Assembly: GCF_004340785.1 (NCBI RefSeq)
Contig: NZ_SLXS01000002.1
Location: 186,001 to 250,000, forward strand
From: Tumebacillus sp. BK434
GTDB lineage: Bacteria; Bacillota; Bacilli; Tumebacillales; Tumebacillaceae
Length of the DNA: 64,000 nt
Reading direction: 5' to 3'
Shown: positions 17,934-36,849 of the stretch, piece by piece
Numbering within the stretch: the stretch's first letter is position 1
Layout of the letters: each line of letters begins with the position of its first letter
Program-made: the position numbers and the translations under genes
The notes under the pieces: generated by a model
The model's database searches: none
What the model saw: only the letters and a program-made list of their open reading frames with translations
Told to the model about the DNA's origin: nothing

Positions 17934-20900
17934 GTGAACAAAAGCAAGAAACTCACCGCTGCTGTAGCTGCAACCGCAGTAGCATCCGCAATCGTAGCAC
18001 CGGTTGCATCCGCGTCCGTGTCGTTCTCCGACATCAACGGTTCTTACGCGAAAGATGCAATCCTCGAACTGGCGAACGCTGGTATCATCGTTGGCGAAAA
18101 CGGCAAGTTCAACCCGTCCGCTAACATCAAGCGTCAAGACTTCGCAATCATCATGGCGAAAGCTCTGAAGCTTGACCTGACCAACGCTCCGAAGACAGCT
18201 ACTTTCTCCGACGTTCCGACCACGCACTACTCCTACGCTGCAGTTGAAGCAGCTGTAAAAGCAGGTCTGCTGTCCGGTACCGGCAACGGCAACTTCGGCC
18301 TCGGCACCAACCTGACCCGCGAACAAATGGCAGTAGTATTCGTAAACGCTTTGGGCGTTGACGTATCCGGCCTGGGCGCTGGCCTGAAGTTCGCTGACGC
18401 TTCCTCCATCTCCGCATGGGCGAAAGACGCAGTAGCATTCGCAGTTGAAGCGAAGCTTCTGTCCGGCGACAACAACAACAAATTCAACCCGGCTGCTAAC
18501 GCTGAGCGCCAACAAGTTGCAGTAGTTGCTTCCAACTTCCTGAAAGCTCAAGAAGTTTACAAGGCTGCTCAACTGAAGGCAGTTACTCTGAAGGACAACT
18601 CGACCGTTGAAATCTCCTTCACCAAAGCTGTTGAGTCCCTCACCGCTGCTGACATCAAAGTTGCAGTTAAAGGCACCAACACTGAAGTAGCTATTTCCGG
18701 TCTGACCCTGTCGGCTGACAAGAAATCCGCTACCTTCACCGCTGACTTCGCAGGCAGCACCACCTACACCGTTACCTACGGTGGCAAATCTGCAGAAGTA
18801 ACTACTGCTGCTACCAACGCAGTAGAAGTTACGAACGTAACTGCGCTGAACCTGAAGCAAATCAAAGTAGACTTCAACCAAGCTGTTGACGCTGCTTCCG
18901 CAACTGCTTCGGCTAACTACACCTACACTGGTGCTGTCGGCAACGGTTATGCAGCTGAAGGCGCATTCGTGCTGTCGGCTGACAAGAAATCCGTTATCAT
19001 CACTCTTCTGAACGCTGAAGCGCAACAAGCTTCCGCAACCCTTAAGATCAAAGACGTGGTAGCTGGTGACAATAAGCTCGCAGAAGTGACCAAGTCCGTT
19101 TCCTTCTTCGATGCAACTGTTCCGTCTGTTACCACTGCAACTGTAACTGGCCCGTCCAAAGTAACTGTTGAGTTCTCCGAGCCGGTAACTGCTGGTGCCC
19201 TCAACGCTTCTGCATTCTCTCTGGACGGCAACACTTACTCCCTGTCCTCTGCAACTGCAGTTGTAGGCGAGCCGAACAAGGTTGAACTGACCATCGGCGC
19301 TACACTGCCGGAAGGTGAACACACCATCAAGATCAACCCGGCTGGCACTGATCCGGCTAACCAAGTGAAAGACTTTGCTGGTTTCGTTGTTCCGACTGCA
19401 GATGTGAAGTTCACTTACACTGTCGATAAGACTGCTCCGGTTGCTGTTATTGACAGCGTTGCTCAAAACCAAGTAGTCATCAAGTTCAACAAAGCTATCA
19501 CTAACACTGGTGCGATTTCCGTATATCACACCTACAATAACATCTTTAACTACCGCGGTACTTCTTCGTGGAGCGTGGATGGCAAAACTCTGACCGTTAC
19601 TTTCGCTGACGCTCCGCTGGCTGTTGGCACTGCAACGATCTTCGTGAACAACGCTTCTGCTGGCTCTGCTGCTGATGCATGGGGCAACAAGTTTGCAAGC
19701 ACCACTTTGACTGCAACTGTCGCTTCTGATGTGACTGCTCCGACTGTTACTTCCGTGAAGCAAGTTGACAGCACCAACATCGATGTAACCTTCAGCAAAG
19801 CAGTAGAAGGTGCAAACATTGCATCTAACTATGTGCTGAAAGACGCTGACGGCGAAGTTGTTGAAGTCAAATCCGCAACTAAGCAAGGTAACACCAACGT
19901 TTACCGTCTGAACACTGCAATTCTGAACGGTGGTTCCTACACCCTGAGCATTGGTGCTGACCTGATCAAGGACACTTCTTACAACAAGAACAAACTTGCT
20001 GCGTACACTGCTACTGTTAGCGTAACTGACAAGGTTGCTCCGGAAGTAATGCCGTCTGGCGTATTCGCTTCTGACACGAAGAAAGTACAAATCAACTTCT
20101 CCGAAGCAATGACAGATGCTGCTCTGAACGCGTCCAACTACCTGATCGCGTACAACGGCATTGCCAAGCAGTCCCTGCCGACTGGTTCGACTGTGACTTG
20201 GGGTGCAAGCAAGAGCTCCGTTATTATCACCTTCCCGTCCGCTCAGGCCGGCCTCGTTTCTGGCACTTCGAAGGTGTTCGTAGCTCAACTGGCTGACCTG
20301 GCTGGTAACAAAACCGAGGGCTTCCAAAACGAAGTTACCTTGAGCACCGACAACATTGCTCTGGCAAACGTTGTTGCTGGTTCTGTGAAAGCTACTGCTC
20401 GAGACACCATCGAGTTCCAGCTGAACACGGCTCTGACTGCAATTAACGTTGCCAACTTCACGATTAACGGTGTTGCTGCAACTGCTGCTTCTTACGTGAA
20501 TAACGATGGAAAAGCAACTGTGACTGTAAAAGCTCCGGCTGCGAGCAAGTTTGCTACTAACTTGTCCGACCTGAACGCTTCTGCAATCACTATCTCCGCT
20601 AATGGCGTAACCTCCGCATTCGGTACTCAAAACTCCGGTACCGTTACCATCGCGAAAGCCACTGTTAAGGACACTGTTGCACCGGAAATTACCGGCTACG
20701 CAACTGTAGATGCTAACAACAATGGTAAGATCGATGCAGTAACCGTGACCTTCTCCGAAGACCTGTACGTTGCTTCCGTACAAGAGTCCGACTTCACTAT
20801 TGAAGGCTACACCATCACTGGTGTTGCTCTGAGTGCAGGTAATGTTGTAACCATCTCTGTAAAAGAGAACTCTGTGATCGACGCTGATGCTACCCCGAAA

Positions 20901-21299
20901 GTTACCTTGGTTGGCGCTGTTTCTGACAACTCCGCACAACGTAACTCCTTGGGCGCTCAAGCAGCTGTAGCTGCAACCGACTCGATCGCAGCATTCATCA
21001 CCGGCGCTGTATACAGTGTATCTGGTGGCAACCACTACGTAACAGTTACCTTCTCTGAAGGCGTAACCGACGAAAATGGTGCTGCTCTCGACGCAACTGA
21101 CTTTGTACTCACCGATGGTGGTGCAGGTACTGCTACAATCGCTAACGCAGTTCACAACGCTAAGTCCAAGTCTGTTGTTCTGCAAGTATCTGAAGCACTG
21201 ACTGATGGCGCTCTGGTAAATGCCGTAGCAACCAAGGTTAAAGATGCAGCTGGCAACGTTTCTGCAACTGCTACCTTCGCAGTAACCGGCCTCAACTAA
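17934..21299 (+). CDS. Main S-layer protein: three SLH domains plus Ig-like repeats
   Basis: 1121 aa. Signal peptide (residues 1–27, ending APVASA), three SLH domains (about 30–205: SFSDINGSYAKDAILELA, TFSDVPTTHYSYAAVEAA, KFADASSISAWAKDAVAF), then about nine bacterial Ig-like modules of roughly 100 residues with recurring VTVTFSE- and VDKTAPV-type strands. The GTG start at 17934 lies eight bases after AAGGAGG. An in-frame ATG at 17847 would add 29 residues before the signal peptide. Codon use strongly prefers GCT/GCA, GTT/GTA and ACT where neighbours use GCG, GTG and ACG, as expected for a very highly expressed gene. It would self-assemble on the wall through pyruvylated polymer made with CsaB (56110). 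Confidence 0.92.
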   Translation: MNKSKKLTAAVAATAVASAIVAPVASASVSFSDINGSYAKDAILELANAGIIVGENGKFNPSANIKRQDFAIIMAKALKLDLTNAPKTATFSDVPTTHYSYAAVEAAVKAGLLSGTGNGNFGLGTNLTREQMAVVFVNALGVDVSGLGAGLKFADASSISAWAKDAVAFAVEAKLLSGDNNNKFNPAANAERQQVAVVASNFLKAQEVYKAAQLKAVTLKDNSTVEISFTKAVESLTAADIKVAVKGTNTEVAISGLTLSADKKSATFTADFAGSTTYTVTYGGKSAEVTTAATNAVEVTNVTALNLKQIKVDFNQAVDAASATASANYTYTGAVGNGYAAEGAFVLSADKKSVIITLLNAEAQQASATLKIKDVVAGDNKLAEVTKSVSFFDATVPSVTTATVTGPSKVTVEFSEPVTAGALNASAFSLDGNTYSLSSATAVVGEPNKVELTIGATLPEGEHTIKINPAGTDPANQVKDFAGFVVPTADVKFTYTVDKTAPVAVIDSVAQNQVVIKFNKAITNTGAISVYHTYNNIFNYRGTSSWSVDGKTLTVTFADAPLAVGTATIFVNNASAGSAADAWGNKFASTTLTATVASDVTAPTVTSVKQVDSTNIDVTFSKAVEGANIASNYVLKDADGEVVEVKSATKQGNTNVYRLNTAILNGGSYTLSIGADLIKDTSYNKNKLAAYTATVSVTDKVAPEVMPSGVFASDTKKVQINFSEAMTDAALNASNYLIAYNGIAKQSLPTGSTVTWGASKSSVIITFPSAQAGLVSGTSKVFVAQLADLAGNKTEGFQNEVTLSTDNIALANVVAGSVKATARDTIEFQLNTALTAINVANFTINGVAATAASYVNNDGKATVTVKAPAASKFATNLSDLNASAITISANGVTSAFGTQNSGTVTIAKATVKDTVAPEITGYATVDANNNGKIDAVTVTFSEDLYVASVQESDFTIEGYTITGVALSAGNVVTISVKENSVIDADATPKVTLVGAVSDNSAQRNSLGAQAAVAATDSIAAFITGAVYSVSGGNHYVTVTFSEGVTDENGAALDATDFVLTDGGAGTATIANAVHNAKSKSVVLQVSEALTDGALVNAVATKVKDAAGNVSATATFAVTGLN

Positions 21300-21975: not shown

Positions 21976-22019
21976 AAGCCTGTCTCTCGATGCTCAAGAT
22001 CTGGGAGATAGGCTTTTTT
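21976..22019 (+). terminator. Terminator after the SLAP gene
   Basis: AAGCCTGTCTC/GAGATAGGCTT (one G·U) followed by a T run. Confidence 0.85.
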
Positions 22020-22029
22020 GCATTTCATT

Positions 22030-22051
22030 CAACTTTTCTCGATTTGAGCGG
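22030..22051 (+). promoter_or_regulatory. Shared upstream motif of tail-fibre-like cassette 1
   Basis: CAACTTT (22030–22036), 12 bases ending TTGAG, then CGG (22049–22051), 18 bases before the AGGAGG ribosome site. The same layout stands before cassette 3 (31577) and, in a variant form, before cassette 2 (31550, minus). The AAC…CG layout recalls ECF-type promoters. The sigma factor is unknown. Confidence 0.5.
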
Positions 22052-22084
22052 CTAGTAAGTAAACGCAAAAGGAGGTGTCGGACA

Positions 22085-22420
22085 ATGTCATTCGTTCCCA
22101 AGGCAGATTGGAAGTATAACGAAGTTTTGACGGAAGATGATATGAATCGCATTGAAAGTGGAATTGAAGCGGCGCATGTCATGATCGGGGATGTAGGCCG
22201 GGAGGTCGTGGGGCTGCAGGAGATGGCAGAAGATGCATTGCGCTCATTACGTCTTAACTTCCTTGATCTCGCCATTGAAGTGGAAACGATGAAAAAAGCG
22301 CAGTTGACAGGGGTTACCGCCAACATTTTGGTGGAGACGTTTCTTGATGTCAACGACATTACCAGCTGTAACGGGGCGCTGAAGTATGATGTAGAGCAAC
22401 GAAAGATTTTTTTAGCCTAA
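22085..22420 (+). CDS. Cassette 1: short tail-fibre-type N-terminal domain protein
   Basis: 111 aa. The N terminus FVPKADWKYNEVLTEDDMNR followed by IESGIE is the same conserved block found at the start of the proteins at 30834 and 31632. Phage and prophage tail or receptor proteins often begin with this kind of segment. Residues about 25–70 form a probable coiled coil (VGLQEMAEDALRSLRLNFLD). It lacks the NPHGVT module and the C-terminal domain of its two paralogues. AGGAGGT precedes the ATG. It is the first gene of a three-gene plus remnant operon. Confidence 0.65.
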   Translation: MSFVPKADWKYNEVLTEDDMNRIESGIEAAHVMIGDVGREVVGLQEMAEDALRSLRLNFLDLAIEVETMKKAQLTGVTANILVETFLDVNDITSCNGALKYDVEQRKIFLA

Positions 22421-22438
22421 TGGAAGGAGGGCGCTCTT

Positions 22439-24646
22439 GTGGCGAATTACACATTATCAAATCTGCCAGCGAAATTTGCAATTGGTGATACGATTACCAT
22501 CAACTTTACTGGTGCCATGCAGTCTTTAAATATTGGGACATATCGTGAGGTCGGAGTTCTCAAAATCGAGTGTTGGGGTGGCGGTGGTCAGCATGATGGA
22601 CAATCATCCCCAGCAGGCGGTGGAAAAGGTGGATATGTCGTCGGCGAACTCAACACGAAGAACTTACGTGAGAATGGTACCACTATGCTTTATTGCATCG
22701 TTGGAGGGTATGCGAACACCTTTAATGGCGGAGGAAGTGGCTCCAAAATAGGAGGCGGTGCAACAGATGTTCGAACAGACTGGACAGGTGGTGCATGGAA
22801 CAACGCTACATCACTGAACTCCCGTTTGATCGTAGCAGGAGGAGGCGGTGCTACTACTAGTGGTGGTTCTTATCAAGCGGGAGATGGCGGTGGGTTTACA
22901 GGTGTGACGGGTAGCATGGGAAGAAACTGCTATCAGGCAGCGAGTGGCGGTTCACAAATTTCGGGGGGGGTTGGTGGTAGATCAAACGGTGGGACCGATA
23001 TGTCGCCGCTAAATGGAGGAGCAGGTTCATTCGGTGTGGGAGGATCTTCACCCGCCAGTACATATCATGGCGGCGGTGGAGGTGGCGGCTGGTATGGAGG
23101 TGCTGGCGGTGTTTCTGACGGCGATCCAGCAGGAGTCGACTGTTACAATCCAGGCGGTGGTGGATCATCTTACATTGCCGGCCATCCTTCATGTCCGCAA
23201 GCGCATCCCAATCAGATAGCGCTCAGCAATGGCTCGACAGTTACCGGGGCGAATCCAATGGCAGCCAACGGAAAGATCGTCATGACCGTTCTGTCGATCA
23301 ATCTTCCCCCCAATTCACCAAACAACTTGTCCCCAGAAGGAACATCGACGATACCGGCGATGTTAAAAACACTAAATCCCACTTTTTCGTGGATGTTTAG
23401 TGATCCGGATCCTGACGACACCCAACATGCTTTTCGGATTATCGTGCGAAAACAAGACGCTTCCATCGTGCATGATACAGGTAAGCTAGCAGGTGCTACG
23501 AACACGTATACGTTGCCGGGAAACCTGCTGACAATGAACACACTGTATTCTTACACGGTCACGGTATGGGACAAGGCGGATGACAGTGCGGTTAGCGCCA
23601 TGAATTATTTCATGCCCTCTAATGCGCCGATTGCGACCCCCACATTCGGAACTGCCGATCCCTTTTCATCGCCAACGGGAACAAGTCTGGTGCCGCGATT
23701 AACGTGGTTTTACAGTGATCCAGACCAACATGCTCAGTCCGCATACGAGGTTGAAGTGTTTCGTGCGCTCGATGATCTGAAGGTGTTGGGAAGCGGAGTC
23801 ATTCGCTCAGCCACTCCTTACTACGATGTCCCGGTAGACATCTTGGTTTCCGGTGTGACGTACTACTGGAAAGTCAGAGTGATCGACAGCACCGGGTTGG
23901 ATAGTCCGTTTAGCAATGGTTACTATTTCTTGACGAATCATCCGCCAGGCACTCCGAGACTTGTATCACCAAGGGACACTATAAGAACAGGCAAGCGACC
24001 TGTTTTTACGGCGACAATAGAAGATGACCCGGAAGATGACGCGCAGCATTATAAAATCGAGATCGCGGAGGATGAGGCTTTTACTTCTGGTCTGCAGGTA
24101 AGATGCTCAGAAATGGCACTTGTCGGCTGGGAAGTGAAAACGGCTGCTGGTGAATTTGTTTCCCTGCCAGCCACCGGTGCGGATAGTACGTATGAATCTG
24201 GAGCTGTACGCTATACGTGGCAAACGGACTTACAAGAAGGGAAGACGTATTATTGGCGAATGGCTTCCATCGATGCGACCACCGGAGCATCTAGTGTTTG
24301 GACTCCCGTGAGGAAGATCCGTTGCGGAAATGTGTTGCAGTTCCAAGGGAAAACATCGATTTCGACAACATTGCCAGCGGCACGAATCGTGTTCAGTGCC
24401 GTAATGAATGTACCAAACGATGGCAAATTGCCTGCCTCGATCAAGATTGAAGCTTGTAACAACGGACACGATGCAGAACCTTCATGGGAGGACTGCACAC
24501 AGGCATATTTGCATGGACAGTACCACAGATTCGCAAACACGGTGAAGAACGCGGACACTTGGGCTGTCAATTACCGGGTTACGATAAAAGCGAATGACAG
24601 CCTGGGCCCGATTGAGGTGGACGCGATCGGAATCAGTTTTGACTAA
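22439..24646 (+). CDS. Cassette 1: glycine-rich and Fn3-like repeat surface or tail protein
   Basis: 735 aa, no signal peptide. Residues 1–285 are a glycine-rich domain (blocks such as GGGKGGYVVGEL, IVAGGGGATTSGG and HGGGGGGGWYGGAGGV, ending PGGGGSSYIAGH), like the Gly-rich fold of phage tail tip and receptor proteins. Residues 290–620 hold three Fn3-like modules (PTFSWMFSDPDPDDTQHAFRI, PRLTWFYSDPDQHAQSAYEV, PVFTATIEDDPEDDAQHYKI). The last 115 residues form an unassigned beta domain. It starts at GTG 22439 after GGAAGGAGGG. The role is likely binding to a polymer or surface; the absence of an export signal fits a tail-like or co-assembled protein. Confidence 0.7.
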   Translation: MANYTLSNLPAKFAIGDTITINFTGAMQSLNIGTYREVGVLKIECWGGGGQHDGQSSPAGGGKGGYVVGELNTKNLRENGTTMLYCIVGGYANTFNGGGSGSKIGGGATDVRTDWTGGAWNNATSLNSRLIVAGGGGATTSGGSYQAGDGGGFTGVTGSMGRNCYQAASGGSQISGGVGGRSNGGTDMSPLNGGAGSFGVGGSSPASTYHGGGGGGGWYGGAGGVSDGDPAGVDCYNPGGGGSSYIAGHPSCPQAHPNQIALSNGSTVTGANPMAANGKIVMTVLSINLPPNSPNNLSPEGTSTIPAMLKTLNPTFSWMFSDPDPDDTQHAFRIIVRKQDASIVHDTGKLAGATNTYTLPGNLLTMNTLYSYTVTVWDKADDSAVSAMNYFMPSNAPIATPTFGTADPFSSPTGTSLVPRLTWFYSDPDQHAQSAYEVEVFRALDDLKVLGSGVIRSATPYYDVPVDILVSGVTYYWKVRVIDSTGLDSPFSNGYYFLTNHPPGTPRLVSPRDTIRTGKRPVFTATIEDDPEDDAQHYKIEIAEDEAFTSGLQVRCSEMALVGWEVKTAAGEFVSLPATGADSTYESGAVRYTWQTDLQEGKTYYWRMASIDATTGASSVWTPVRKIRCGNVLQFQGKTSISTTLPAARIVFSAVMNVPNDGKLPASIKIEACNNGHDAEPSWEDCTQAYLHGQYHRFANTVKNADTWAVNYRVTIKANDSLGPIEVDAIGISFD

Positions 24647-24662
24647 GAAAGGGGAGCTCAAA

Positions 24663-25121
24663 ATGCGAGTCTTAGTATCGAAAGATTTAAAAGAGCTTCG
24701 AGAAGAAAAAACTGCTGTGTTGGATGCAGATCAACTTTTTCAGGAGCTGGATACAAAAATGGCGACGCTGGAAGAAGTCAAAGCGGCAAAAGATGCACAA
24801 CTTGTTTATCTCTGTGATTTTTCCATCCGGCAAGGGTTCATATCTAAGGCGCTCGGAACGGCACATACCTACCCATCAGATATGGAGGCACAGGCCAATC
24901 TGCAGAGTTCAATCAAGCGATTGGAGAACGAACCAAGCAAAGAAGTTGTAATATTCAAGACGATGGAAGCTGGGTTCCTCCCCCACACGCTTGAGCAGTT
25001 ACGACAGGTATTGAATGACGGTTTCGATCATGGCGAGAACATGATCATTCGGAGGGAGCTCCTTCGTACTCAAGTGGAACAAGCCAAGAATGTGCAAGAA
25101 GTTGTTTCGATTGTTTGGTAG
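24663..25121 (+). CDS. Cassette 1: DUF4376-like small phage-type protein
   Basis: 152 aa, hydrophilic. The middle (LVYLCDFSIRQGFISKALG, then THTYPSDMEAQANL-like residues and a later TLEQLRQVLNDG) resembles the DUF4376 domain often found beside phage tail fibres. Its function is unknown, perhaps fibre assembly. It occupies the same slot as the unrelated small genes at 29175 and 33685 in the other cassettes. The ATG at 24663 follows AAGGGGAG. Confidence 0.5.
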   Translation: MRVLVSKDLKELREEKTAVLDADQLFQELDTKMATLEEVKAAKDAQLVYLCDFSIRQGFISKALGTAHTYPSDMEAQANLQSSIKRLENEPSKEVVIFKTMEAGFLPHTLEQLRQVLNDGFDHGENMIIRRELLRTQVEQAKNVQEVVSIVW

Positions 25122-25131
25122 GTTTTAAAGC

Positions 25132-25208
25132 ACCGGTCAAAAGACGATACGCAAGCTAACTTCACCAAAGCGCTATTCTTCGATCTCGACCAAGAGATGG
25201 GCTATCGT
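25132..25208 (+). pseudogene. Remnant of an XkdX-like gene at the end of cassette 1
   Basis: The DNA aligns with the 3' part of the intact small gene at 29000–29173. It begins CCGGTCAAA, has one extra A that shifts the frame, then encodes DTQANFTKALFFDLDQEMGY against YAEANFSREQLEHAQEMGY, with a 15-base identity CAAGAGATGGGCTAT. No start codon or full frame remains. Confidence 0.5.
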
Positions 25209-25219
25209 GAGAAGACCAT

Positions 25220-25248
25220 GCCCCGCCATTTATTGGCGGGGCTCTATT
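25220..25248 (+). terminator. Hairpin terminator at the end of cassette 1
   Basis: GCCCCGCCA/TGGCGGGGC with a 5-nt loop, followed by TCTATTT. A near-identical hairpin ends cassette 3 at 34185. Confidence 0.7.
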
Positions 25249-25328
25249 TGTTGTAACAGCACAAATACAGACGCACGGAGGTGCATGCCTTCATCTACGA
25301 GCTTAGTATTAACAATAAATTTGGAAGT

Positions 25329-25371
25329 ATCAATTGATTCTGTTTACAATTACAAATGCATAACATATAAT
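25329..25371 (+). promoter_or_regulatory. Promoter and palindromic operator candidate of the first receptor/peptide pair
   Basis: TTTACA (25343–25348), 17 bases, TATAAT (25366–25371) is a near-consensus sigma-A promoter. The perfect palindrome ATCAATTGAT (25329–25338) ends four bases before the -35 box. Confidence 0.7.
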
Positions 25372-25435
25372 TATCAAGTGAGTAACTTTTAGATTTCTTT
25401 ATCTATTTGCACTTTGCTCATTTGGGGGGACACTC

Positions 25436-26617
25436 ATGTCGACGCTTCAATATACAGCAACAACAGGGGTAAGTAGAATCCCCTTGGGTAGACGCATTGG
25501 CGAGATCTTAAACGAGAAGGGGGAAGCCTTCTCAATTCGTAAATTTGCTGAGCACATCGGTATGAACCGAGAAACTTTACGTATTATGATAGCAGGAGGG
25601 CGTCTGATTCAGCCTTCGCAACTTGAGGCGATTGCAGAGGGGTTAGGCTTAAGCGTTGATCGTCTTAAACAGGCCGATACATATAAGATCGAGAGAGAGC
25701 TATTCACCTTACTTCAAGCACGACGACAGACCAAGGTGATGCTAATGCACGCAAGCACATTGGCTGATTCACTGGTCAAAAGTGCAGTTGGTGCAACTGA
25801 GCGTGCCATTAGTTTGAACTACTACGGAAAAGTCTGTTTTCTTCAGTCTCGATATAATGAGGCACATGAAGCATGGTCTCTGGCACTGGAATACGCTGAG
25901 GAGATTATGAAACTTTATGGAGATGGCGATCAACTCCATCTGATTACCTCAAATTTAATGTTGACGTATACCATACGGCGGGAGTACAGCGATATTGAGC
26001 GAATGCTTGCGGTCGTTGAAGAAGCACTTGCTGACTTTCCGGAGGCAATGGGGTTAGCATATTATACCCGCATGAAGGTATGTGAAGATCGGGGAGAAAT
26101 TGAAGAAGCAAAAAAATATGCGTATTTGTCGCTTGAACAATTCGAGCAAACTAACGATGAGCAAATAGGAAAGGCTTTGATTAACACTGCTCATTTCGAA
26201 TTTTTGACGAAGAACTACAAGAAAGCTGCAGAACTTTTGCTGACCGCGATTGACAAACTGATCATGCATGATTATTTCATGCTGATCGCAGTAAAGGAAT
26301 ACGTAAAAACGCTTGTCCGCTTAAAAGAGTATGAAGCAGCGAGTTCTTTAATTGAAAAACATCTCCCACCCGCGCAGGATTATCCCGAATTGCATGGGAA
26401 GCTTCAACTCTTGTATTCCATTGCTAAGGAGACTCCAGAGTACGCCATCAAAGTCTGTGAAAACGATCAACTCGATAAAGAAGTTCGGTACATGGCAAGT
26501 AAGTACCTGACCAGCTACTACAGCGTTAAAGATGACTCTGATTCCGTCCTAAAGTATTATAAGCTGGGGCGCATGCTTTCCAATAATAGAAACGAATTTC
26601 ATGAGGGGGATCTGTAA
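25436..26617 (+). CDS. RRNPP-type peptide-sensing regulator (HTH + TPR), receptor A
   Basis: 393 aa. Residues about 14–80 form an HTH domain (SIRKFAEHIGMNRETLRIMI, then LEAIAEGLGLSVDRL). The remainder is a chain of TPR-like helix pairs (AISLNYYGKVCFLQSRYNEA, TRMKVCEDRGEIEEAKKYAY). This is the build of RRNPP receptors (Rap, NprR, PlcR, PrgX, AimR), which bind re-imported peptides. The stop codon overlaps by one base the start of a gene for a small exported peptide, the classical receptor/signal layout. Size and an adjacent tail-type cassette also recall phage AimR, but no lysogeny genes are present. Confidence 0.8.
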   Translation: MSTLQYTATTGVSRIPLGRRIGEILNEKGEAFSIRKFAEHIGMNRETLRIMIAGGRLIQPSQLEAIAEGLGLSVDRLKQADTYKIERELFTLLQARRQTKVMLMHASTLADSLVKSAVGATERAISLNYYGKVCFLQSRYNEAHEAWSLALEYAEEIMKLYGDGDQLHLITSNLMLTYTIRREYSDIERMLAVVEEALADFPEAMGLAYYTRMKVCEDRGEIEEAKKYAYLSLEQFEQTNDEQIGKALINTAHFEFLTKNYKKAAELLLTAIDKLIMHDYFMLIAVKEYVKTLVRLKEYEAASSLIEKHLPPAQDYPELHGKLQLLYSIAKETPEYAIKVCENDQLDKEVRYMASKYLTSYYSVKDDSDSVLKYYKLGRMLSNNRNEFHEGDL

Positions 26618-26754
26618 TGAAAAAGCAATGGGGACTAACGGTTCTGGCTGTGGGTGTGCTTCTGGGGTCTTTCGTAATTGATCTGGGTAGTAATCAGGCG
26701 AAGGTTGCTCAAACAGTACCGCCCACTCCGTTGAGTATTATCAAAACCCCATAA
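26617..26754 (+). CDS. Pro-peptide of signalling pair A (Phr/AimP-like)
   Basis: 45 aa, starting MKKQWGLTVLAVGVLLGSFV, a compact secretion signal, and ending TPLSIIKTP. GAGGGGG lies seven bases upstream, inside the receptor gene, and the ATG shares a base with the receptor stop codon. In RRNPP systems the C-terminal 5–10 residues are cut out, re-imported by an oligopeptide permease and bound by the partner receptor. The exact mature peptide is not known; the last residues (PLSIIKTP) are the prime candidate. Confidence 0.78.
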   Translation: MKKQWGLTVLAVGVLLGSFVIDLGSNQAKVAQTVPPTPLSIIKTP

Positions 26755-26928
26755 GAACTACTTCAAAGCTCCCTCGTTGCTGGTTGACGAGGGATTAATA
26801 ATGTCAATTGTACGTTTGACATGTTTTTATTTTCCATAGACATGTGGATTACCAATAAAACCGGCTCTCGATAAGTGTGTCGTTTTATTATGTTTATATA
26901 AGGTAATCTAAGGTGTGGAGGTATTGAC

Positions 26929-28218
26929 ATGAATACCCTTGGTGATAAGATCCGTGAGCTCCGATTGCGAAAAGGCATCACCCAAATCGAACTGGCCGCC
27001 GGGCTTTGCACGCCGAGTATGATCTCGCAGGTGGAATCGAATCGGGCGCGGCCATCTTATAAGATGCTGTATGGGCTGGCACTGAAGTTGGAGACGCCGC
27101 TGGAGAACCTTTTGAAGGATGTTGAACTGGACTTGGAGCAAGCAAGTCAATTTAAGATGGCGTTGAGTATGACAAAGGCGAAAGCGTATGGTGCAGCGCT
27201 CCCTCTTTTGGAACGACTGGCGGAGAGTGCATTGACGAAGGTCTCTCCGTCTAAGGTGGAGTTCGAGCTGGCTAAGTGCTATATGGAAACCGGCGAATAT
27301 GAAAAATCATCCTTGCTGTTCAACAAGATGGCGGATGCTGCCAGCCTGCGCCAGGAGCAAGATCTGGTGGCGCAAGTGTTGCTGCAACTGGCCGACCTCT
27401 CGAATCGGAAGAAGGAATACCAGATCGCCAAGCACCACGGGTATAAGGCTCTGGATGCCATGCGCTCACTGGATGCGCATGACCCGTTTTTGTATGCACA
27501 GATCCTCACGCAGTTGGCTGAGATTCACGAGAACATTGGAGAAGTCAAAATCGCATCTGACCTCTACGAAACAGCCTTGGAGATCAGTGAAGGTCTGCAC
27601 AACTTGAAGGAGAAAGCCAAAACCTATCTCGGTCTTGCCGAGTCATTCTACCGCCAAAATGATTTTGAAAAAGCGGCCGAGTACGCAGAACGCTCTAGTT
27701 CAGCAATCGGCGAACTAAGCGATCAGCACACCCTCCTCGCATGGAAGCAGAAACTGCTCATGTTGCAACGAAGCAAAGGGAACCGGCAGCAAACGGTGGA
27801 CGAGCTGTTGAGCATCGCTTCGATACTGGAGGCGAATCAGGAGAAGGAAGAAGCAGGCGCAGTCTTGCTGGATGCGGCAACGATACAGGTTGAGAATGGG
27901 GCGTTGCAGGAAGCGGAAACGTGCTTAGAAAAAGCAAAGCAGCTGTTGCCGCCGCATCATGCCGCGATGGGTACCTATTTTCGCTTGCTCGCCGGACTTC
28001 ATTTTTCCAAAGAGCATCACGAGCAAGGGGACAAGGCTTTGGAAAAGTCGATCCGTATTTTTATGAATCACGCCATGCTGGCCGAGCTGCGGGAAGCGGT
28101 CAATGAACGATGCGAGCGGTTGAATCAGCAAGGGCTCATTCAGGAGGCATTTGAGCAGATGAAGTCATTGGACGAATATTTGATTCACGCTTTGCACGAA
28201 CGAGGTATCGCTCTATAA
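26929..28218 (+). CDS. HTH-TPR regulator (PlcR/NprR-like), no adjacent peptide gene
   Basis: 429 aa. The N-terminal XRE-type HTH (LGDKIRELRLRKGITQIELA, then CTPSMISQVESNRARPSY) is followed by at least six TPR repeats (for example KCYMETGEYEKSSLLFNKMA and YLGLAESFYRQNDFEKAAEY). It is a close paralogue of the regulator at 45426. No small exported-peptide ORF overlaps its end; instead a 180-aa gene follows after 25 bases. It may respond to a peptide made elsewhere. GTGGAGGT precedes the start. Confidence 0.8.
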   Translation: MNTLGDKIRELRLRKGITQIELAAGLCTPSMISQVESNRARPSYKMLYGLALKLETPLENLLKDVELDLEQASQFKMALSMTKAKAYGAALPLLERLAESALTKVSPSKVEFELAKCYMETGEYEKSSLLFNKMADAASLRQEQDLVAQVLLQLADLSNRKKEYQIAKHHGYKALDAMRSLDAHDPFLYAQILTQLAEIHENIGEVKIASDLYETALEISEGLHNLKEKAKTYLGLAESFYRQNDFEKAAEYAERSSSAIGELSDQHTLLAWKQKLLMLQRSKGNRQQTVDELLSIASILEANQEKEEAGAVLLDAATIQVENGALQEAETCLEKAKQLLPPHHAAMGTYFRLLAGLHFSKEHHEQGDKALEKSIRIFMNHAMLAELREAVNERCERLNQQGLIQEAFEQMKSLDEYLIHALHERGIAL

Positions 28219-28243
28219 GGGTGGAGCTATCAAGGGGGATCTG

Positions 28244-28786
28244 ATGACAGCACCTCAAGAAGAAGATTGGAAAACGGTTACGGAGCAACGGTATCAAAAG
28301 GAGTTTGACGAACTGCGCAGCTATTTGCAGTCGATTTATTCGTATGACAGTTCGCGAATCCAGCTCCAATTTACCGTGCTCGAGGAATCAAGAAGATGGT
28401 ATTGGACAGCCTCAAAGTTCAAGATCTCATTGATAGAGGGTGAGCAATGTCATCTTGCTCTGGAGATGGAGAGTTTGGAAGAGCTGGAAAAGAATCAGCC
28501 ATTTATTGATTTTCTCGGGACTGTTGACGGGAACTTTATACCGATCGGCTCAGTGTATCTGTTGAAACGATTGGAACTAGCGGCAGGAACCGACCAAACA
28601 GAAATCGCAGCGCTTGTTCATGCGGGGGCTGTGATCGTTGTCTGTGCCAAGGAAGAGATGACACGGCAGGTATCTGGTGTTCAAGAGAAATGGCATGAGA
28701 TTTATGGTTTCAGAAGCGAGAAAGAGATTGAGTTTGAGGGAACCTGTTATTACAGGTATGACTCGGTATTTAGCTGGCATTATTAA
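28244..28786 (+). CDS. Hypothetical protein co-transcribed with the HTH-TPR regulator
   Basis: 180 aa, acidic, no signal peptide or membrane segment. I do not recognise a family. It has a helical N-terminal third (EEDWKTVTEQRYQKEFDELR) and a mixed alpha/beta remainder ending in aromatic residues (CYYRYDSVFSWHY). A good ribosome site (AAGGGGGA) and the 25-base gap to the regulator imply one operon, followed by a terminator. Confidence 0.7.
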   Translation: MTAPQEEDWKTVTEQRYQKEFDELRSYLQSIYSYDSSRIQLQFTVLEESRRWYWTASKFKISLIEGEQCHLALEMESLEELEKNQPFIDFLGTVDGNFIPIGSVYLLKRLELAAGTDQTEIAALVHAGAVIVVCAKEEMTRQVSGVQEKWHEIYGFRSEKEIEFEGTCYYRYDSVFSWHY

Positions 28787-28793
28787 TGAAAAA

Positions 28794-28831
28794 GGACCTG
28801 AGCACCGCTGATCTGCGGACTCAGGTCTTTT
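28794..28831. terminator. Bidirectional terminator between converging operons
   Basis: GACCTGAG/CTCAGGTC enclosing an inner CCGC/GCGG hairpin, with T runs on both strands. It serves the regulator operon and the minus-strand cassette 2. Confidence 0.85.
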
Positions 28832-28999
28832 CGTTATTTTTGAACAAATTTACAATTCTATTCTGATAGTTTCCCTTTGCAATGCCCAATGTTGTCTTTG
28901 CGGGTGTATCTCTGGCCAAATGGTCGCTTCTCGAAGCAAGGAGCACTTATGTGGATTCGAGTGATCCGTTTTGTGCAGCCAGAGCGTGCAGGGCATTCA

Positions 29000-29173
29000 T
29001 TAAGAGAGATAGCCCATCTCTTGGGCGTGTTCGAGCTGTTCACGGCTGAAATTCGCTTCGGCATAGTCTTTGACCGGCTGCACGTACTCGGCCGGGATGT
29101 CGGAGAACTTGGTGGTGCCGTAAATGTAGATGTTACGCGCGTAAGTGCTGGTGCGGAAGGTCAGGATGGTCAT
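29000..29173 (-). CDS. Cassette 2: XkdX-like small protein
   Basis: 57 aa. It starts MTILTFRTSTYARNIYIYG and ends VKDYAEANFSREQLEHAQEM plus GYLS. The ending resembles XkdX-type proteins found after tail-fibre genes in PBSX-like prophages, where residues such as EQY-x-E-I are common. AAAGGAG precedes the ATG, and the preceding stop codon is one base away. The function of XkdX is unknown. A decayed copy lies at 25132. Confidence 0.6.
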   Translation of the reverse strand: MTILTFRTSTYARNIYIYGTTKFSDIPAEYVQPVKDYAEANFSREQLEHAQEMGYLS

Positions 29174-29174
29174 G

Positions 29175-29555
29175 TTACAACACTCCTTTTTCTGCTAAGT
29201 AGTCCATAAGGGCTTGAAAGTCGGCGCTCTGCTGCGCCTGTAGTTCGACGAGGGATTTGGACTTCTTCGCATTGGTCAGGTGCTCGTCGAGGGAGGTGGT
29301 GAAGTCTTGCAGCTTTTCGTGCATCGTTTTTTCGCGGACGGTCTTGCCGTGGGTGAAGGTGGTGCCATCGAAGTAGATGACAGGTGTCTCCAGTTCAGCC
29401 AGTTCCATCGAGGGGACGGGCACGTCATCGACGATGTAGACTTTTTGGGCGGTGCCTTCGATCTGGTAGTCTTCCAGTTTTGCGTCTGCCGCGACCGGAA
29501 TCCAAGCGGTGACGATGTTGGTTTCGGCTTGCACGTAGATCAGTTTTTTCTCCAC
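29175..29555 (-). CDS. Cassette 2: small accessory protein of unknown family
   Basis: 126 aa. A beta-rich first half (KLIYVQAETNIVTAWIPVAA, VYIVDDVPVPSMELAELETP) and a helical second half (EKLQDFTTSLDEHLTNAKKS). Not recognised; by position it is a tail-fibre accessory or assembly protein. AGGAG stands ten bases before the GTG at 29555; a GTG at 29564 is too close to it. Confidence 0.6.
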   Translation of the reverse strand: MEKKLIYVQAETNIVTAWIPVAADAKLEDYQIEGTAQKVYIVDDVPVPSMELAELETPVIYFDGTTFTHGKTVREKTMHEKLQDFTTSLDEHLTNAKKSKSLVELQAQQSADFQALMDYLAEKGVL

Positions 29556-29568
29556 AGGGTTCACGCTC

Positions 29569-30837
29569 CTATTGAATGATGCGGCCGTAGGTGCCGTCGT
29601 ATTTGTAGAGCTGGGTGCCTTTGACGGCAATGGTACAGAGATTACGGTGCGAGGAGACGCCGTTGAGCAGCGGCTCGGGCACGGTGGTTAAGAGACCGAC
29701 ATGGCTCCAGAATTGGAGGGGTTTGATGTCGGACTGCACGACAAGCCCATTGGTATAGTTGGTGGCATAACTTTGACTGGTAGAGATCTGAAACACATCG
29801 CCCATAAGTCCTTGATAGAGATCCCGCGAGCCCAATTTCGGGCGTCCTGTATAGGCTTCTGTTCCTAAGCGGTCGATGTAATACTTGTCGGATTCGCCAA
29901 GCGCTCCCGAGGTGCTCTGGCCGACCGAAAATAAGGAACCGGTTGCTTTGTCGCTTCGCTCAAATACATACATCCCGTATTCACTATAATTCGAAAAGAC
30001 ATGGCTGGGCGTGGAAGTGAGCGAACTGCCAAACGTGCCACCGTACGGCTGGGTGGTGCTGTTGTTCCCGATGGCCCAATGATATCTGGAGCCGTAATAC
30101 TGGGTGCCCGACCAGGCGGCGGTAACACCGAGGACACCTGCTTCACAGGCGTAGAGGGTTGCCACGGTGCCATGGGTTGTCGGGGCGGCCGCCATCAGCC
30201 GCTGCACGGTGCAGGTCTGCAGGTTGGAGAGGGCGGGAGCAGTTGTGCCACCGAGCGCACCTTTGGCGATGTTCATGGCGACGATGGGGTAGACGGACGT
30301 TTTTTCAAGGGTCACATTCGTGCAGGCGAGCAGCACTTTGTTATACGCAGTGCCGTCTCCGATCACGCCGATGTAGTTCCAGCCTGCGGTGGGCATGGTG
30401 GTGTTGGTGTACAGGTTGTAGACATTGCCGTTGGTCATGTCGACCGCGTAGAATCTCGCCGTCGCAACGCTGTCATAGGTGGTGAAGTAGACCCAGTCGA
30501 CTTCCAGCGTGCTGCTTGTCGTCGGCATTTTCACGGCGGTGATGGAGCCGCTGAATTTGCCCACGAGGCTGACACTTCTCGTCACCGCACCGCTCCCGTT
30601 CACTTCGAGGATCGAACTGTTGTTGTTCAGGAAGACGACGATGCGCAAGTTGGCATCGGTAACGGTACTCCCTTCGTTGACGACCCACATCCCGCGGGGG
30701 GCCGTGGACAGAGTGAGCAGAGGAGCCAATTTCGTGGCTTGGAAGGTGCTCAAATTGCTGCTGGGAACGAAGTCACCGGTGCGGTAGCCGCCGCTACCGA
30801 AGCCTCTGGCACGCAGGGTCAGGTCGGTAGTGATCAT
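29569..30837 (-). CDS. Cassette 2: large beta-rich tail-fibre-like protein
   Basis: 422 aa, no signal peptide, rich in Ser/Thr/Gly/Tyr. Repeating beta segments such as VDWVYFTTYDSVATARFYAVD, each followed by a turn, suggest a propeller-like binding domain. No known domain could be named. Its ATG overlaps the stop codon of the upstream gene (ATGA) and GGAGGTG stands eight bases upstream. It takes the place of the glycine-rich proteins in cassettes 1 and 3, so it is probably the variable recognition part. Confidence 0.65.
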   Translation of the reverse strand: MITTDLTLRARGFGSGGYRTGDFVPSSNLSTFQATKLAPLLTLSTAPRGMWVVNEGSTVTDANLRIVVFLNNNSSILEVNGSGAVTRSVSLVGKFSGSITAVKMPTTSSTLEVDWVYFTTYDSVATARFYAVDMTNGNVYNLYTNTTMPTAGWNYIGVIGDGTAYNKVLLACTNVTLEKTSVYPIVAMNIAKGALGGTTAPALSNLQTCTVQRLMAAAPTTHGTVATLYACEAGVLGVTAAWSGTQYYGSRYHWAIGNNSTTQPYGGTFGSSLTSTPSHVFSNYSEYGMYVFERSDKATGSLFSVGQSTSGALGESDKYYIDRLGTEAYTGRPKLGSRDLYQGLMGDVFQISTSQSYATNYTNGLVVQSDIKPLQFWSHVGLLTTVPEPLLNGVSSHRNLCTIAVKGTQLYKYDGTYGRIIQ

Positions 30838-31502
30838 GAGGTGCGCACCTCCGTCAGTTTTATTCCCCGCGTATTCCACGTATAGGCGTAGGTCTCCGTT
30901 TTGACGACCGAAGTGCCCGCTGCGTTGTAGTACTTCCAGGTGTCAGTCTGGTAGTAGCCGTTTACATCGGGATTGGACAGCGTCGTCTTGAGGTACAGAG
31001 AGCCGTCCTCCCGCAGCCAGTCGCACACTTTGTAAAAACCATTCGTGTCCACGCTGGCCTGGTCGATGCGTTCGTAATAGCGCTGCAGGCGTTCGTCTGT
31101 TGTGTTGAGCTTGCCGATGGTCAGGGATTGGTCGCTTTTGAAAGTACCGGCGACGACCCCGTCGACAAGAACTTCTACGCCCAAGTCGGTGGTTGCATTG
31201 GCGTTCCAGCGCAACTGGGACTTCTGAGGGCGAGAAGCGTCTAAGATGAGCGCTGGGGTCGGCTTTTTGATGGTGGGATTTGCGGTGAAGTTGGTCGTGC
31301 CGTCCGCTTTGACATAGGCGTCAAGGTCGGAAACTTTGGCCGCACCGAGTTGTTCGGCAGTGACATCGTGCGGGTTGCTTTTGTCAGCCGCGTGGGATTC
31401 AAGGAGCTGAGTTCCTTCGATGAGACCGCTTTCGATGCGGTTCATGTCCTTTTCGGTTAACACGTCGTTGTATTGCCAGTTGGTTTTGGGGATATATGGC
31501 AT
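30834..31502 (-). CDS. Cassette 2: tail-fibre-type N-terminal protein with NPHxVT module
   Basis: 222 aa. It starts MPYIPKTNWQYNDVLTEKDM and continues with the NRIESG block shared with 22085 and 31632. NPHDVTAEQLGA, a very common repeat of phage tail fibres, follows. The C-terminal domain (WLREDGSLYLKTTLSNPDVN, WKYYNAAGT) is homologous to that of 31632. GGAGGTG lies seven bases before the ATG. It is the first gene of the minus-strand cassette and faces its paralogue head to head across about 130 bases. Confidence 0.72.
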   Translation of the reverse strand: MPYIPKTNWQYNDVLTEKDMNRIESGLIEGTQLLESHAADKSNPHDVTAEQLGAAKVSDLDAYVKADGTTNFTANPTIKKPTPALILDASRPQKSQLRWNANATTDLGVEVLVDGVVAGTFKSDQSLTIGKLNTTDERLQRYYERIDQASVDTNGFYKVCDWLREDGSLYLKTTLSNPDVNGYYQTDTWKYYNAAGTSVVKTETYAYTWNTRGIKLTEVRTS

Positions 31503-31528
31503 GAGAAGCACCTCCTTACTTTGTATAG

Positions 31529-31550
31529 CCGATGATGGAGGTGGAACTTG
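31529..31550 (-). promoter_or_regulatory. Shared upstream motif, cassette 2 (variant)
   Basis: Read on the minus strand: CAAGTTC (31550–31544), 12 bases, CGGCTA (from 31531). Cassette 1 also continues CGGCTA. It differs from the other two copies at two positions of the first block. Confidence 0.4.
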
Positions 31551-31576
31551 AGGTGAGAATTCATAAAGATTGTCTT

Positions 31577-31598
31577 CAACTTTCAGATACTTGAGCGG
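31577..31598 (+). promoter_or_regulatory. Shared upstream motif, cassette 3
   Basis: CAACTTT (31577–31583), 12 bases ending TTGAG, CGG (31596–31598), 19 bases before AGGAGG. It is nearly identical to the copy at 22030, including the preceding TT and the block TTGAGCGG. Confidence 0.5.
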
Positions 31599-31631
31599 TT
31601 CTATTTTAAGACCAATTAGGAGGTGTCGAGC

Positions 31632-32126
31632 TTGCCGTATGTTCCAAAGACAGATTGGAAATACAACGATGTACTTTCTGAGAAGGATATGAATCGGATT
31701 GAAGAAGGCATTGCAGAGGGAAAGCAACTTGTTGTGGCCCATGCCGCTGACAAGAATAACCCTCATGGAGTGACAGCGGCACAGATTGGAGCAGAAACCC
31801 CCGCCGGGGCGCAAGAGAAGGTAGTACTGCTACAACAAGCAATCAATGCTGATATTGCGGATCTGAAAAGAGACTTGAGCGGGTACAGCGCCTACCGCAG
31901 CGCACCGGACGAAATGGGACAATACACGGTGGTCGAGTATAAACGAGAAGACGGCACTCTGCATATGAGGTCAACGCTCAGCAAACCGGACGCCAACTTC
32001 AATTACGGCACTGCGCTGTGGCAGTTCTACAACGGTGCAGGTACTGCTGTAACAACCACCATCCGATGGACGATCACGTATGATTCCAACAATAAAATCG
32101 TAAGCGAGGTGATGGCATATGAGTAA
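31632..32126 (+). CDS. Cassette 3: tail-fibre-type N-terminal protein with NPHGVT module
   Basis: 164 aa, starting at TTG 31632, chosen because AGGAGGT lies seven bases upstream and the product then begins like its paralogue (PYVPKTDWKYNDVLSEKDM). HAADKNNPHGVTAAQIGAET is a typical phage tail-fibre repeat. A C-terminal domain (KREDGTLHMRSTLSKPD, LWQFYNGAGT) is shared with 30834. Its last eight bases overlap the start of the next gene. It is probably the base or attachment part of a fibre. Confidence 0.72.
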   Translation: MPYVPKTDWKYNDVLSEKDMNRIEEGIAEGKQLVVAHAADKNNPHGVTAAQIGAETPAGAQEKVVLLQQAINADIADLKRDLSGYSAYRSAPDEMGQYTVVEYKREDGTLHMRSTLSKPDANFNYGTALWQFYNGAGTAVTTTIRWTITYDSNNKIVSEVMAYE

Positions 32127-33669
32127 GTTGACCGGAGTGCTCAGGGAACATGGCGTCAATACGCTAACGGGTGCTTCAGTTGCACCCTACTTTGGTACAG
32201 GTGCTGATGGTGATCTAGTTGTAGATGTCAATCCGGTTCCGATAGCTCCAGCGCAAATTACAACAGCATACGGAGGTGCCGTCGCTAATCTCGTTGATGG
32301 TGATTCTGCCACGTACTTTCAGACCACTAACGTACCGGCCACCAACGGAGTAGTGTTTCAAATTGACTTTGGTCAGAGCGTCTACATCGATGTGTTCAAT
32401 CTTAAAAAACTTACGACAGGATCAAACGTAATTGGCGTAGAGACCGCGAAACTCCAGTACTCAAATAACGGAACGAGTTGGACGGTATTCGGAAACAATG
32501 TTGTCAACAACACCTCGGCGACGGTCGAAAAGGATTATGCCCTTACAGCACAGCCCGTGAGTGCTCGCTACTGGCGACTTGTCCACACTTACGATGTCGG
32601 ACGAACTTACAAGATCGCGGAAATAAGTGCACAAATGCGGTATACCTACCTGCCCGTTCAAAATCAAGATGAAACTACACTGGTCATGAATTACAGAAGC
32701 ATCACAATTAATAAAGATGCCGTCTTGGCACCAGATAAAAGATGCCGCGGCATCCTCCTCTACTCGCAGGGTGATGTCACGCTTGACGGGGTGATCGATG
32801 TTTCGGGAAAGGCTGCGTTTGTAAATCCAGAAACCACACTCCAAATGATCCTCCCGCTGGCTGTTAAAAAGATCATGCAATTCGATCCATCCGGCAACAA
32901 ATTCATCGTAATCCCAAAGGGTGGATATGGTGGTGCTGGAGGTAACGGTGGTGGTTACGCACCCACCACAGGCAGAGGGGGGGCAGGTGGATTCGGGACG
33001 TGGTACGGAGGCGGGGTTGGAGGAGGTGGCGGCGGCGGTCGCGGTTTTGAGTATGTTACGTACAAGTGGGGTTACGGAGGTAACGGCGGCGAAGGTTCAT
33101 CCGGACCAGGATCTGCAAGCACTAGATTCGTACAGGGTGTTGGCCCGGTATTCTTACAAGGGAACAATGGCGGTATTGGTGCCGGTGGTTCTGGTGGTCT
33201 TGTAATCGGTAACACAGGTGTCATTGCGAACAGTGGTAACGGGGGCTCAAGCCTTCAAGGTGGCGGTGGCGGCGGCGGTGGTGGACTCGGCACGTATTAC
33301 AATTCTACATCCGCTGGAGACGGTGGCATCGGCAGAAATCTAGGAGGCGGAGCGTTAATTTTAGTTGCGAGAGGTAGCATCACCATTTCGAGTACAGGAG
33401 TAATAGATGCCAACGCGACAGGGAGCGCAGGTGTGGGAGGCGTAGGTGTCGCCTATGGTGATTCTAACAACGATGGCGGCGGCGGTGGCGGCGGTGGCGG
33501 AGCAGGTGGCGGAACCGTGACCATCATCCACAAAGGCACCTTTTCTAACCTGGGGACCATCACTGTTAATGGATCTGCAGGTGGAGTAGGCGGAGTAGGC
33601 GCCCCGAATGGTCAAAATGGATCTGCAGGAGGCATTGGAAGCATCGCTGTCTACAACCTCAATAACTAA
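32119..33669 (+). CDS. Cassette 3: discoidin-like plus glycine-rich fibre protein
   Basis: 516 aa, no signal peptide. Residues about 40–180 look like an F5/8 type C (discoidin) sugar-binding domain (ANLVDGDSATYFQTTN, FQIDFGQSVYIDVFNL, SARYWRLVHTYDV). Residues about 190–510 form a repetitive beta domain with long glycine runs (GGAGGFGTWYGGGVGGGGGG, LILVARGSITISSTGVIDAN), like phage glycine-rich tail tip proteins. The N-terminal ATG overlaps the upstream gene by eight bases. A carbohydrate-binding fibre is a reasonable inference. Confidence 0.7.
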   Translation: MSKLTGVLREHGVNTLTGASVAPYFGTGADGDLVVDVNPVPIAPAQITTAYGGAVANLVDGDSATYFQTTNVPATNGVVFQIDFGQSVYIDVFNLKKLTTGSNVIGVETAKLQYSNNGTSWTVFGNNVVNNTSATVEKDYALTAQPVSARYWRLVHTYDVGRTYKIAEISAQMRYTYLPVQNQDETTLVMNYRSITINKDAVLAPDKRCRGILLYSQGDVTLDGVIDVSGKAAFVNPETTLQMILPLAVKKIMQFDPSGNKFIVIPKGGYGGAGGNGGGYAPTTGRGGAGGFGTWYGGGVGGGGGGGRGFEYVTYKWGYGGNGGEGSSGPGSASTRFVQGVGPVFLQGNNGGIGAGGSGGLVIGNTGVIANSGNGGSSLQGGGGGGGGGLGTYYNSTSAGDGGIGRNLGGGALILVARGSITISSTGVIDANATGSAGVGGVGVAYGDSNNDGGGGGGGGGAGGGTVTIIHKGTFSNLGTITVNGSAGGVGGVGAPNGQNGSAGGIGSIAVYNLNN

Positions 33670-33684
33670 TAAGGGGGATTTAAA

Positions 33685-33987
33685 ATGGTAAAATTGATCT
33701 TCATCGAGAATCCGCATGACGTGCGTAGTCGGGAGCTTCGGGTGAGGCTCGCAGAGCTAGGATTAACAGACGAGACGCATTTTGTTTCATTCCAGGATGT
33801 TACGTGCCTGCCGATCCAGGCAGCCCCTTGCGTCTTTCTGGTGGGTGTTGATGACCTGCTGGATAGCTTTACTGAGAAGGACGTGGTGGATCATCTGAAC
33901 TTTGTGAAGAACAAGACAACCACTGAGGAACGCCTCAACTATCTCGGACAACTCGCCGTCCGGGCACGATTGGCAGGTGTTAAGTAA
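33685..33987 (+). CDS. Cassette 3: small accessory protein of unknown family
   Basis: 100 aa, alpha/beta (KLIFIENPHDVRSRELRVRL, CVFLVGVDDLLDSF). Not recognised. It holds the third place in the cassette, before the XkdX-like gene, and its TAA overlaps the next ATG. It is possibly an assembly chaperone. Confidence 0.6.
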   Translation: MVKLIFIENPHDVRSRELRVRLAELGLTDETHFVSFQDVTCLPIQAAPCVFLVGVDDLLDSFTEKDVVDHLNFVKNKTTTEERLNYLGQLAVRARLAGVK

Positions 33988-34124
33988 TGAGCAGCTTTGA
34001 CTTCTGGAAAATGTGCTGGGAAGAGAAGTGGGCTACAGAGTCTGATATGAAGCAAGCCGTTGTTATTGGCGAGCTGGTGGAAGAGGAGTACGAGGAGATC
34101 GTTGGAGTGGCCTACACCTCGTGA
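33987..34124 (+). CDS. xkdX: Cassette 3: XkdX family protein
   Basis: 45 aa: SSFDFWKMCWEEKWATESDM in the first half and ELVEEEYEEIVGVAY in the second. The pattern of an N-terminal W-rich helix and a final E-E-Y-x-E-I-x-G-x-x-Y is that of the PBSX XkdX family, normally encoded just after the tail fibre. Its function is unknown. Confidence 0.75.
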   Translation: MSSFDFWKMCWEEKWATESDMKQAVVIGELVEEEYEEIVGVAYTS

Positions 34125-34184
34125 CAATAGAAACTAGACGAAAAGAGCGAGAGCGCGTTGAAGCGGTCTCTTTTTTATTCACCT

Positions 34185-34211
34185 AGCCCTGCCTAATGGC
34201 GGGGCTTTTTT
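34185..34211 (+). terminator. Terminator of cassette 3
   Basis: AGCCCTGCC/GGCGGGGCT (one G·U) with a 4-nt loop and six T. It resembles the hairpin ending cassette 1. Confidence 0.88.
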
Positions 34212-36632: not shown

Positions 36633-36849
36633 AACCAGAAACTCTTCAAATTATCTTGTTATTGGTAAAAAAGACTATTTTTTCTTCACTTTCCATCAAT
36701 CTGCTATAAACTTTTTTTCATTTCGACCGACATAAAGAGAGTAGGCAACTAGATTTGGGAACAAGGAACTAGTCCCAAAAGGCAGGAGTCTCCCTGATCT
36801 TGTCGAAATCTGTTATCACATGAAATATCGTGCAAGGGAGGAAACAAGG

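Follow-up and report, generated by a model that had tools for sequence, protein, structure and literature searches.

Dispersed phage-type fiber cassettes in Tumebacillus share a promoter-like element with a putative tailocin locus

PBSX has its own sigma factor, Xpf (PMC10141391), and tailocin clusters with multiple fiber genes, as well as fiber exchange, are known (PMC10598620). A related arrangement is that of SigN from the Bacillus subtilis plasmid pBS32, an ECF-related and LexA-repressed sigma factor of a phage-like element whose regulon is turned on after DNA damage (PMC6751061). In Clostridioides difficile phages and R-type bacteriocins, the receptor-binding proteins of contractile tails recognise the S-layer protein SlpA (PMC10100898, PMC9615553). 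The Tumebacillus genome described here appears to encode a particle similar to PBSX-like particles and R-type tailocins, with a headless contractile tail, holin, amidase and its own sigma factor. However, whereas the extra fiber genes of known tailocins are inside the cluster or in invertible segments, the candidate fiber cassettes of Tumebacillus are hundreds of kb away and also on another contig. A literature search found no paper on tailocins in Tumebacillus or on fiber cassettes remote from their tailocin.

The window, a 64,000-nucleotide stretch of Tumebacillus sp. BK434 (G000), is on contig C2 of this genome, in which the contigs referred to are labeled C1, C2 and C11; it is compared here, using sequence data from three Tumebacillus genomes, with T. 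avium AR23208 (G001) and a second Tumebacillus relative (G002). An initial annotation of the window had described three tail-fiber-like cassettes, and these are present at the coordinates and on the strands given for them. The gene order adaptor, binder, accessory and XkdX is complete in cassette C, is recognizable by order and size in B, and ends in an XkdX remnant in A. Cassette A (all genes +) contains the 111-aa adaptor A1 (22085..22420), the 735-aa binder A2 with a GTG start (22439..24646), the 152-aa accessory protein A3 (24663..25121), and the XkdX-like remnant A4 (25122..25256), which has a stop directly before it, no start codon, and a terminator-like hairpin inside it (25220-25242). 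Cassette B (all −) contains the 222-aa adaptor B1 (30834..31502), the 422-aa binder B2 (29569..30837), the 129-aa accessory B3 (29175..29564) and the 57-aa XkdX-like B4 (29000..29173). Cassette C (all +) contains the 164-aa adaptor C1 with a TTG start (31632..32126), the 516-aa binder C2 (32119..33669), the 100-aa accessory C3 (33685..33987) and the 45-aa XkdX protein C4 (33987..34124), with a terminator-like hairpin 3′ of C4 (34185-34206). The annotation had placed an XkdX-like protein in every cassette; this is correct for C4, the one protein in the window cassettes that matches Pfam XkdX (PF09693, 28.7 bits), and by resemblance for B4, which has no Pfam match, but not for the startless copy in A. 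The terminal stretch of the XkdX-like gene is still recognizable between cassettes A and B as an inverted repeat (89%; window 25180-25206 and 29008-29034), despite the broken A copy. Cassettes B and C are divergent, with start codons 129 bp apart, and an invertible-segment switch between them was considered and rejected because a long inverted repeat is absent around their starts; the only inverted repeat found is the one noted above, at the conserved XkdX ends of A and B.

The binder domains are as first annotated: A2 has ALK/LTK Gly-rich (1.7e-23) and Ig/Fn3-like (6.9e-29) profile matches, and binder C2 combines an F5/8 type C (discoidin) domain (1.7e-10) with a Gly-rich part. A3 matches DUF4376 (3.9e-10) and phrog_1348, ‘tail fiber protein’. 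B2 has no match to any known family in profile searches, and a single-sequence AlphaFold prediction of its fold (pLDDT 29) is unusable; no relatives of B2, B3 or binder C2 are present among 50,697 phage records.

By alignment, the N-terminal block common to A1, B1 and C1 is shared beyond chance: B1 and C1 have 72% identity across a 54-aa stretch (E=9e-29), A1 carries the same motif, and in B1 the block is accompanied by an NPHxVTxxQxGA fiber repeat. The block belongs with a tail family and not with a known non-tail one, matching phrog_15651, ‘tail fiber protein’ (C1 6e-15, A1 4e-9, B1 7e-6). The same four-gene plan of adaptor, binder, small accessory and XkdX or tiny protein is found directly behind the baseplate genes of the Brevibacillus phages Emery (gp24-27), Jimmer1 (gp32-35) and Abouo (gp30-33), and Jimmer1 and Abouo also carry the block anchor. 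Emery gp25 has 38.5% identity with the C-terminal 435 aa of A2. A1 and Emery gp24 have different N-termini and match over their last 62 residues, at 44% identity. By these homologies the cassettes are receptor-binding modules of a phage-type distal tail, the reading originally given to them. We infer that the short protein acts as an adaptor, fitting the particle through its N-terminus and the binder through its C-terminus, and the occurrence of the same N-terminus in all Tumebacillus cassettes suggests one kind of docking site. In contrast to the Brevibacillus phages, where these genes follow the baseplate in the late region, each cassette here forms a unit by itself, with a promoter-like element of its own and no tail genes nearby. 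Sheath and baseplate-J genes are absent in and next to the window and there are no complete phage genes just outside it, in agreement with the annotated lack of a surrounding phage.

The cassettes are bordered on the left by an SLH S-layer protein gene (17844..21299, +) and on the right by the gene for a 1228-aa SLH protein (36820..40506, +) whose counterparts in G002 and G001 are 80–88% identical. All three species carry cassettes in the interval that runs from the S-layer gene and its 170-aa neighbor to the 1228-aa SLH gene, in varying number and orientation. The G002 interval has one cassette; its adaptor is 111 aa long and 39% identical to A1, and its 860-aa binder has 452 aa in common with A2 at 53% identity. 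The genes flanking the interval are much more alike between species than are A2 and this counterpart. Within the variable interval of the window there is also an HTH-TPR (RRNPP-like) regulator gene (25436..26617, +), with an orthologue in T. avium, and right after it a 45-aa ORF (26617-26754) with a hydrophobic N-terminus; the two resemble an RRNPP receptor-peptide quorum-sensing pair.

Further cassettes are present elsewhere. A search of the BK434 genome identified a fourth block protein at 873.4 kb on contig C1, in a cassette (C1:871751-873619) in which the gene for the block protein precedes those for a 310-aa Kelch-type binder and a 141-aa protein. The relatives encode additional orphan block proteins, two in T. 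avium and three in G002, together with one G002 prophage fiber, and the only additions from a wider contig scan were T. avium itself and a single Bacillus locus. A contig of Bacillus chungangensis encodes a block-like N-terminus. The adaptor (or an adaptor-binder fusion) is constant among cassettes, and the accessory and XkdX genes are not. A YiiX-like hydrolase fragment adjoins the fourth cassette, and in G002 this fragment recurs next to a cassette and within a prophage.

All three cassettes in the window are preceded by a promoter-like element: TCAACTT-N13-CGGCT for A (22029..22053, +), TCAAGTT-N13-CGGCT for B (31527..31551, −) and TCAACTT-N13-CGGTT for C (31576..31600, +). In the form TCA[AT][CG]TT-N13-CGG[CT]T it precedes eight of the nine orphan cassettes of the three species, and the ninth (T. 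avium, 1087 kb) has a one-base change. It is positioned 46–57 bases before the start codon. The pattern TCAWCTT-N13-CGGYT occurs 11 times in the three genomes, seven of these directly before a block gene, and a reversed control pattern occurs 10 times. The element was not found before genes of the two resident prophages of G002. A terminator, GCCYCGCC..GGCGGGGC, has only three exact matches in the three genomes, two of them near cassettes; these are too few to conclude anything and it was dropped as a cassette-specific mark. From the recurring element and the homologies above, the cassettes are very probably autonomous phage-type fiber units with a common promoter.

Sheath (PF04984) and baseplate-J (PF04865) matches in BK434 are confined to contig C1:187-204 kb and contig C2:472-482 kb, the latter being the nearest to the window, about 220 kb downstream. 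The C2:471-490 kb locus is PBSX-like, encoding a sheath, tube (PF09393), a 1151-aa presumed tape measure, baseplate J, an XkdU-like protein (404 aa, with a long C-terminal extension), a 179-aa protein, two fibers, an amidase and a presumed holin; no capsid or terminase was recognised in it, and it is bordered by an NRPS and unrelated genes. We interpret this as the locus of a putative headless contractile particle and refer to it as a tailocin. G002 has the same locus in the same place, and in T. avium both flanks of the site are conserved (91% and 86%) with the tail genes missing. The empty T. avium site holds a gene (C1:804454-805499) that at its N-terminus is similar to eCIS cargo-type proteins encoded near the eCIS. 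The second BK434 locus (C1:182-208 kb) is probably an eCIS, with two baseplate-J proteins and a long sheath (599-aa frame). The initial annotation had raised the possibility of spare fibers for a tailocin elsewhere that lacks its own; a contractile locus does exist and shares the promoter-like element, but the tailocin has two fibers of its own.

The element reappears at the tailocin. When a weight matrix built from the cassette sites alone was scanned over 531 kb, the only two sites above 17 bits beyond the cassettes were at the orthologous tailocin position in the two species, at G000:471742 (24.8 bits, p 2.3e-9 per position) and in G002 (21.2 bits). The first tailocin gene is preceded by TTCAAC-N15-CGGGCTAG in BK434 and CTCAAG-N15-CGGACTAG in G002, with CGG at the 3′ half, and the element is kept there within otherwise diverged non-coding DNA. 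A 22.5-bit match at C11:61366, within the coding sequence of a gene that has no relation to tails, was taken as chance. Among ORFs with a ribosome-binding site, we also counted those that have a core, TCA[AT][CG]-N15-CGG, in the preceding 75 bp; these were 6 of 7 block genes (a circular figure, since the pattern was derived from them), 6 of 40 tailocin ORFs and 1 of 393 others. The tailocin hits are genes one to three of the locus in each of the two species, and the enrichment over other ORFs (Fisher 2.8e-6; 3.8e-4 for BK434 alone) is for a short core trimmed after the tailocin promoter had been seen. Of the three tailocin sites, two fall within gene 3′ ends and could be coding coincidences. 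The matrix result is free both of the circularity and of the post-hoc trimming, and the shared element suggests a tie between the cassettes and the tailocin locus.

A candidate for the protein that reads the element is a 195-aa ECF-type sigma factor encoded in the tailocin locus at C2:488803-489390 (TIGR02937, 50.4 bits; cut-off 42.9), which is 76% identical in G002; it is found only in BK434 and G002, the genomes with the tailocin, and is absent from five other genomes tested. A sigma region-4 domain is present in another protein of the locus as well. The promoter of the sigma gene is itself sigma-A-like (TTGTAC-N17-TAAAAT in BK434, with TAAGAT in G002), and behind it there is a LexA-like box, AGAACACACGTTCG in BK434 and AGAACATACGTTCG in G002, agreeing at 13 of 14 positions with the Bacillus LexA consensus. 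It is reasonably likely that the cassettes are controlled by this sigma factor. The logic would be the same as that of SigN, although the SigN promoters (TTTACGTTT...AGATATAA; PMC6751061, Table 2) differ from the cassette element.

These components suggest the following scheme. Cassettes A, B and C and the fourth cassette would be separate transcription units with their own promoters, and not a phage remnant in its own operon. DNA damage would lift LexA (SOS) control of the sigma gene, and the sigma factor would then read the element, turning on the tailocin operon together with all of the dispersed cassettes. The adaptor block would serve as the particle anchor, with its C-terminal part fitting the binder; cassette fibers would mount on the tailocin, and the holin and amidase of the tailocin locus would lyse the cell and release particles with mixed binding specificities. 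We give this explanation as a whole a probability of about 0.5. The mounting of cassette fibers on the tailocin is its most tentative step, and three observations count against the scheme. First, both tailocin fibers start with a DUF4815-like anchor that has no detectable homology to the block (hhalign 5 aligned columns, probability 1.1%). Second, BK434 has no credible homologue (best E 0.12) of a candidate docking partner, the 92-aa product of the gene immediately preceding that of the block protein in Jimmer1, Abouo and the G002 prophage. Third, T. avium retains two cassettes (the element of one is perfect) in the absence of both the tailocin and the sigma factor, which fits tailocin loss in that lineage and equally well cassettes that do something else or nothing.

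An alternative, which we regard as rather unlikely, is that the cassettes are relics, receptor-binding ends that recombination left behind when they belonged to old prophages or to previous forms of the tailocin, such that the promoter reflects ancestry and not present use. The lost XkdX start of cassette A, the persistence of cassettes in T. avium without the tailocin, and the G002 cassette at 3008 kb that adjoins a prophage are all consistent with this, as is the match of the block anchor to prophage fibers and not to those of the tailocin. One example of such a fiber is in the G002 prophage at 4.26 Mb (4260 kb), one of two contractile prophages in that genome (C1:3.01 and 4.26 Mb), but this fiber has no promoter-like element and lies inside the prophage's own late operon, an arrangement unlike that of the cassettes. 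Relics would also not be expected to have adaptor and binder ORFs open in all cassettes, promoter halves at exact spacing in upstream alignments where the spacer has diverged, or coding constraint between species; A2 and its G002 counterpart differ at 0.68 of third codon positions and at 0.40 and 0.36 of first and second positions, respectively, which indicates constraint on the A2 frame (dS is saturated for this pair, so that no dN/dS value can be given).

The same anchors could instead mark a fiber reservoir for infecting or resident temperate phages with a matching anchor, such as those of the Brevibacillus Jimmer1 type or the 4.26 Mb prophage of G002, with exchange by recombination in the block. 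The high similarity of the block DNA of C and D4 is in keeping with this, but a recombination reservoir needs no separate promoters and terminators, BK434 has no such prophage baseplate, and we consider it improbable. Less probable still is that the cassettes are exchangeable fibers of the conserved eCIS (C1:182-208 kb). The injection-system link had been proposed in the initial annotation, and eCIS genes are indeed present in all 5–6 family members with matches, including T. avium with its cassettes and no tailocin; however, in the promoter searches nothing linked the cassettes to the eCIS, with no promoter-like element found upstream of its genes, and three members of a neighboring genus have the eCIS without block cassettes. 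That the cassettes form a cell-surface structure linked to the S-layer, also suggested originally, finds no support beyond their position between two SLH proteins in three species and is very improbable, with no N-terminal signal sequence apparent by inspection on adaptors or binders, phage tail genes as the closest relatives, and other cassettes located far from S-layer genes.

Returning to the reading in which a tailocin sigma factor turns on dispersed fibers, what appears to be new is the presence of a promoter-like element at each cassette and the recurrence of its core before the first genes of the tailocin, which suggests one damage-triggered switch for the particle and its spare hooks together. 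More broadly, and only as a possibility, a single SOS-controlled sigma factor may act on one and the same promoter both at the particle operon and at distant units that are inherited independently, such that target range would be set by a chromosome-wide cassette regulon and specificity would be gained or lost by acquisition of cassettes anywhere. The hotspot would then lie beside S-layer genes whose products such fibers may recognise, and, by analogy with C. difficile, S-layer recognition is a possible reason for this linkage. If correct, the specificity of a contractile bacteriocin would not be confined to its own gene cluster, searches limited to tailocin loci would miss most of the range, and the promoter elements of tailocin sigma factors would offer a direct route to the missing fibers. 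The logic of SOS-controlled, element-encoded sigma factors such as SigN and Xpf would extend to genes outside of the element.
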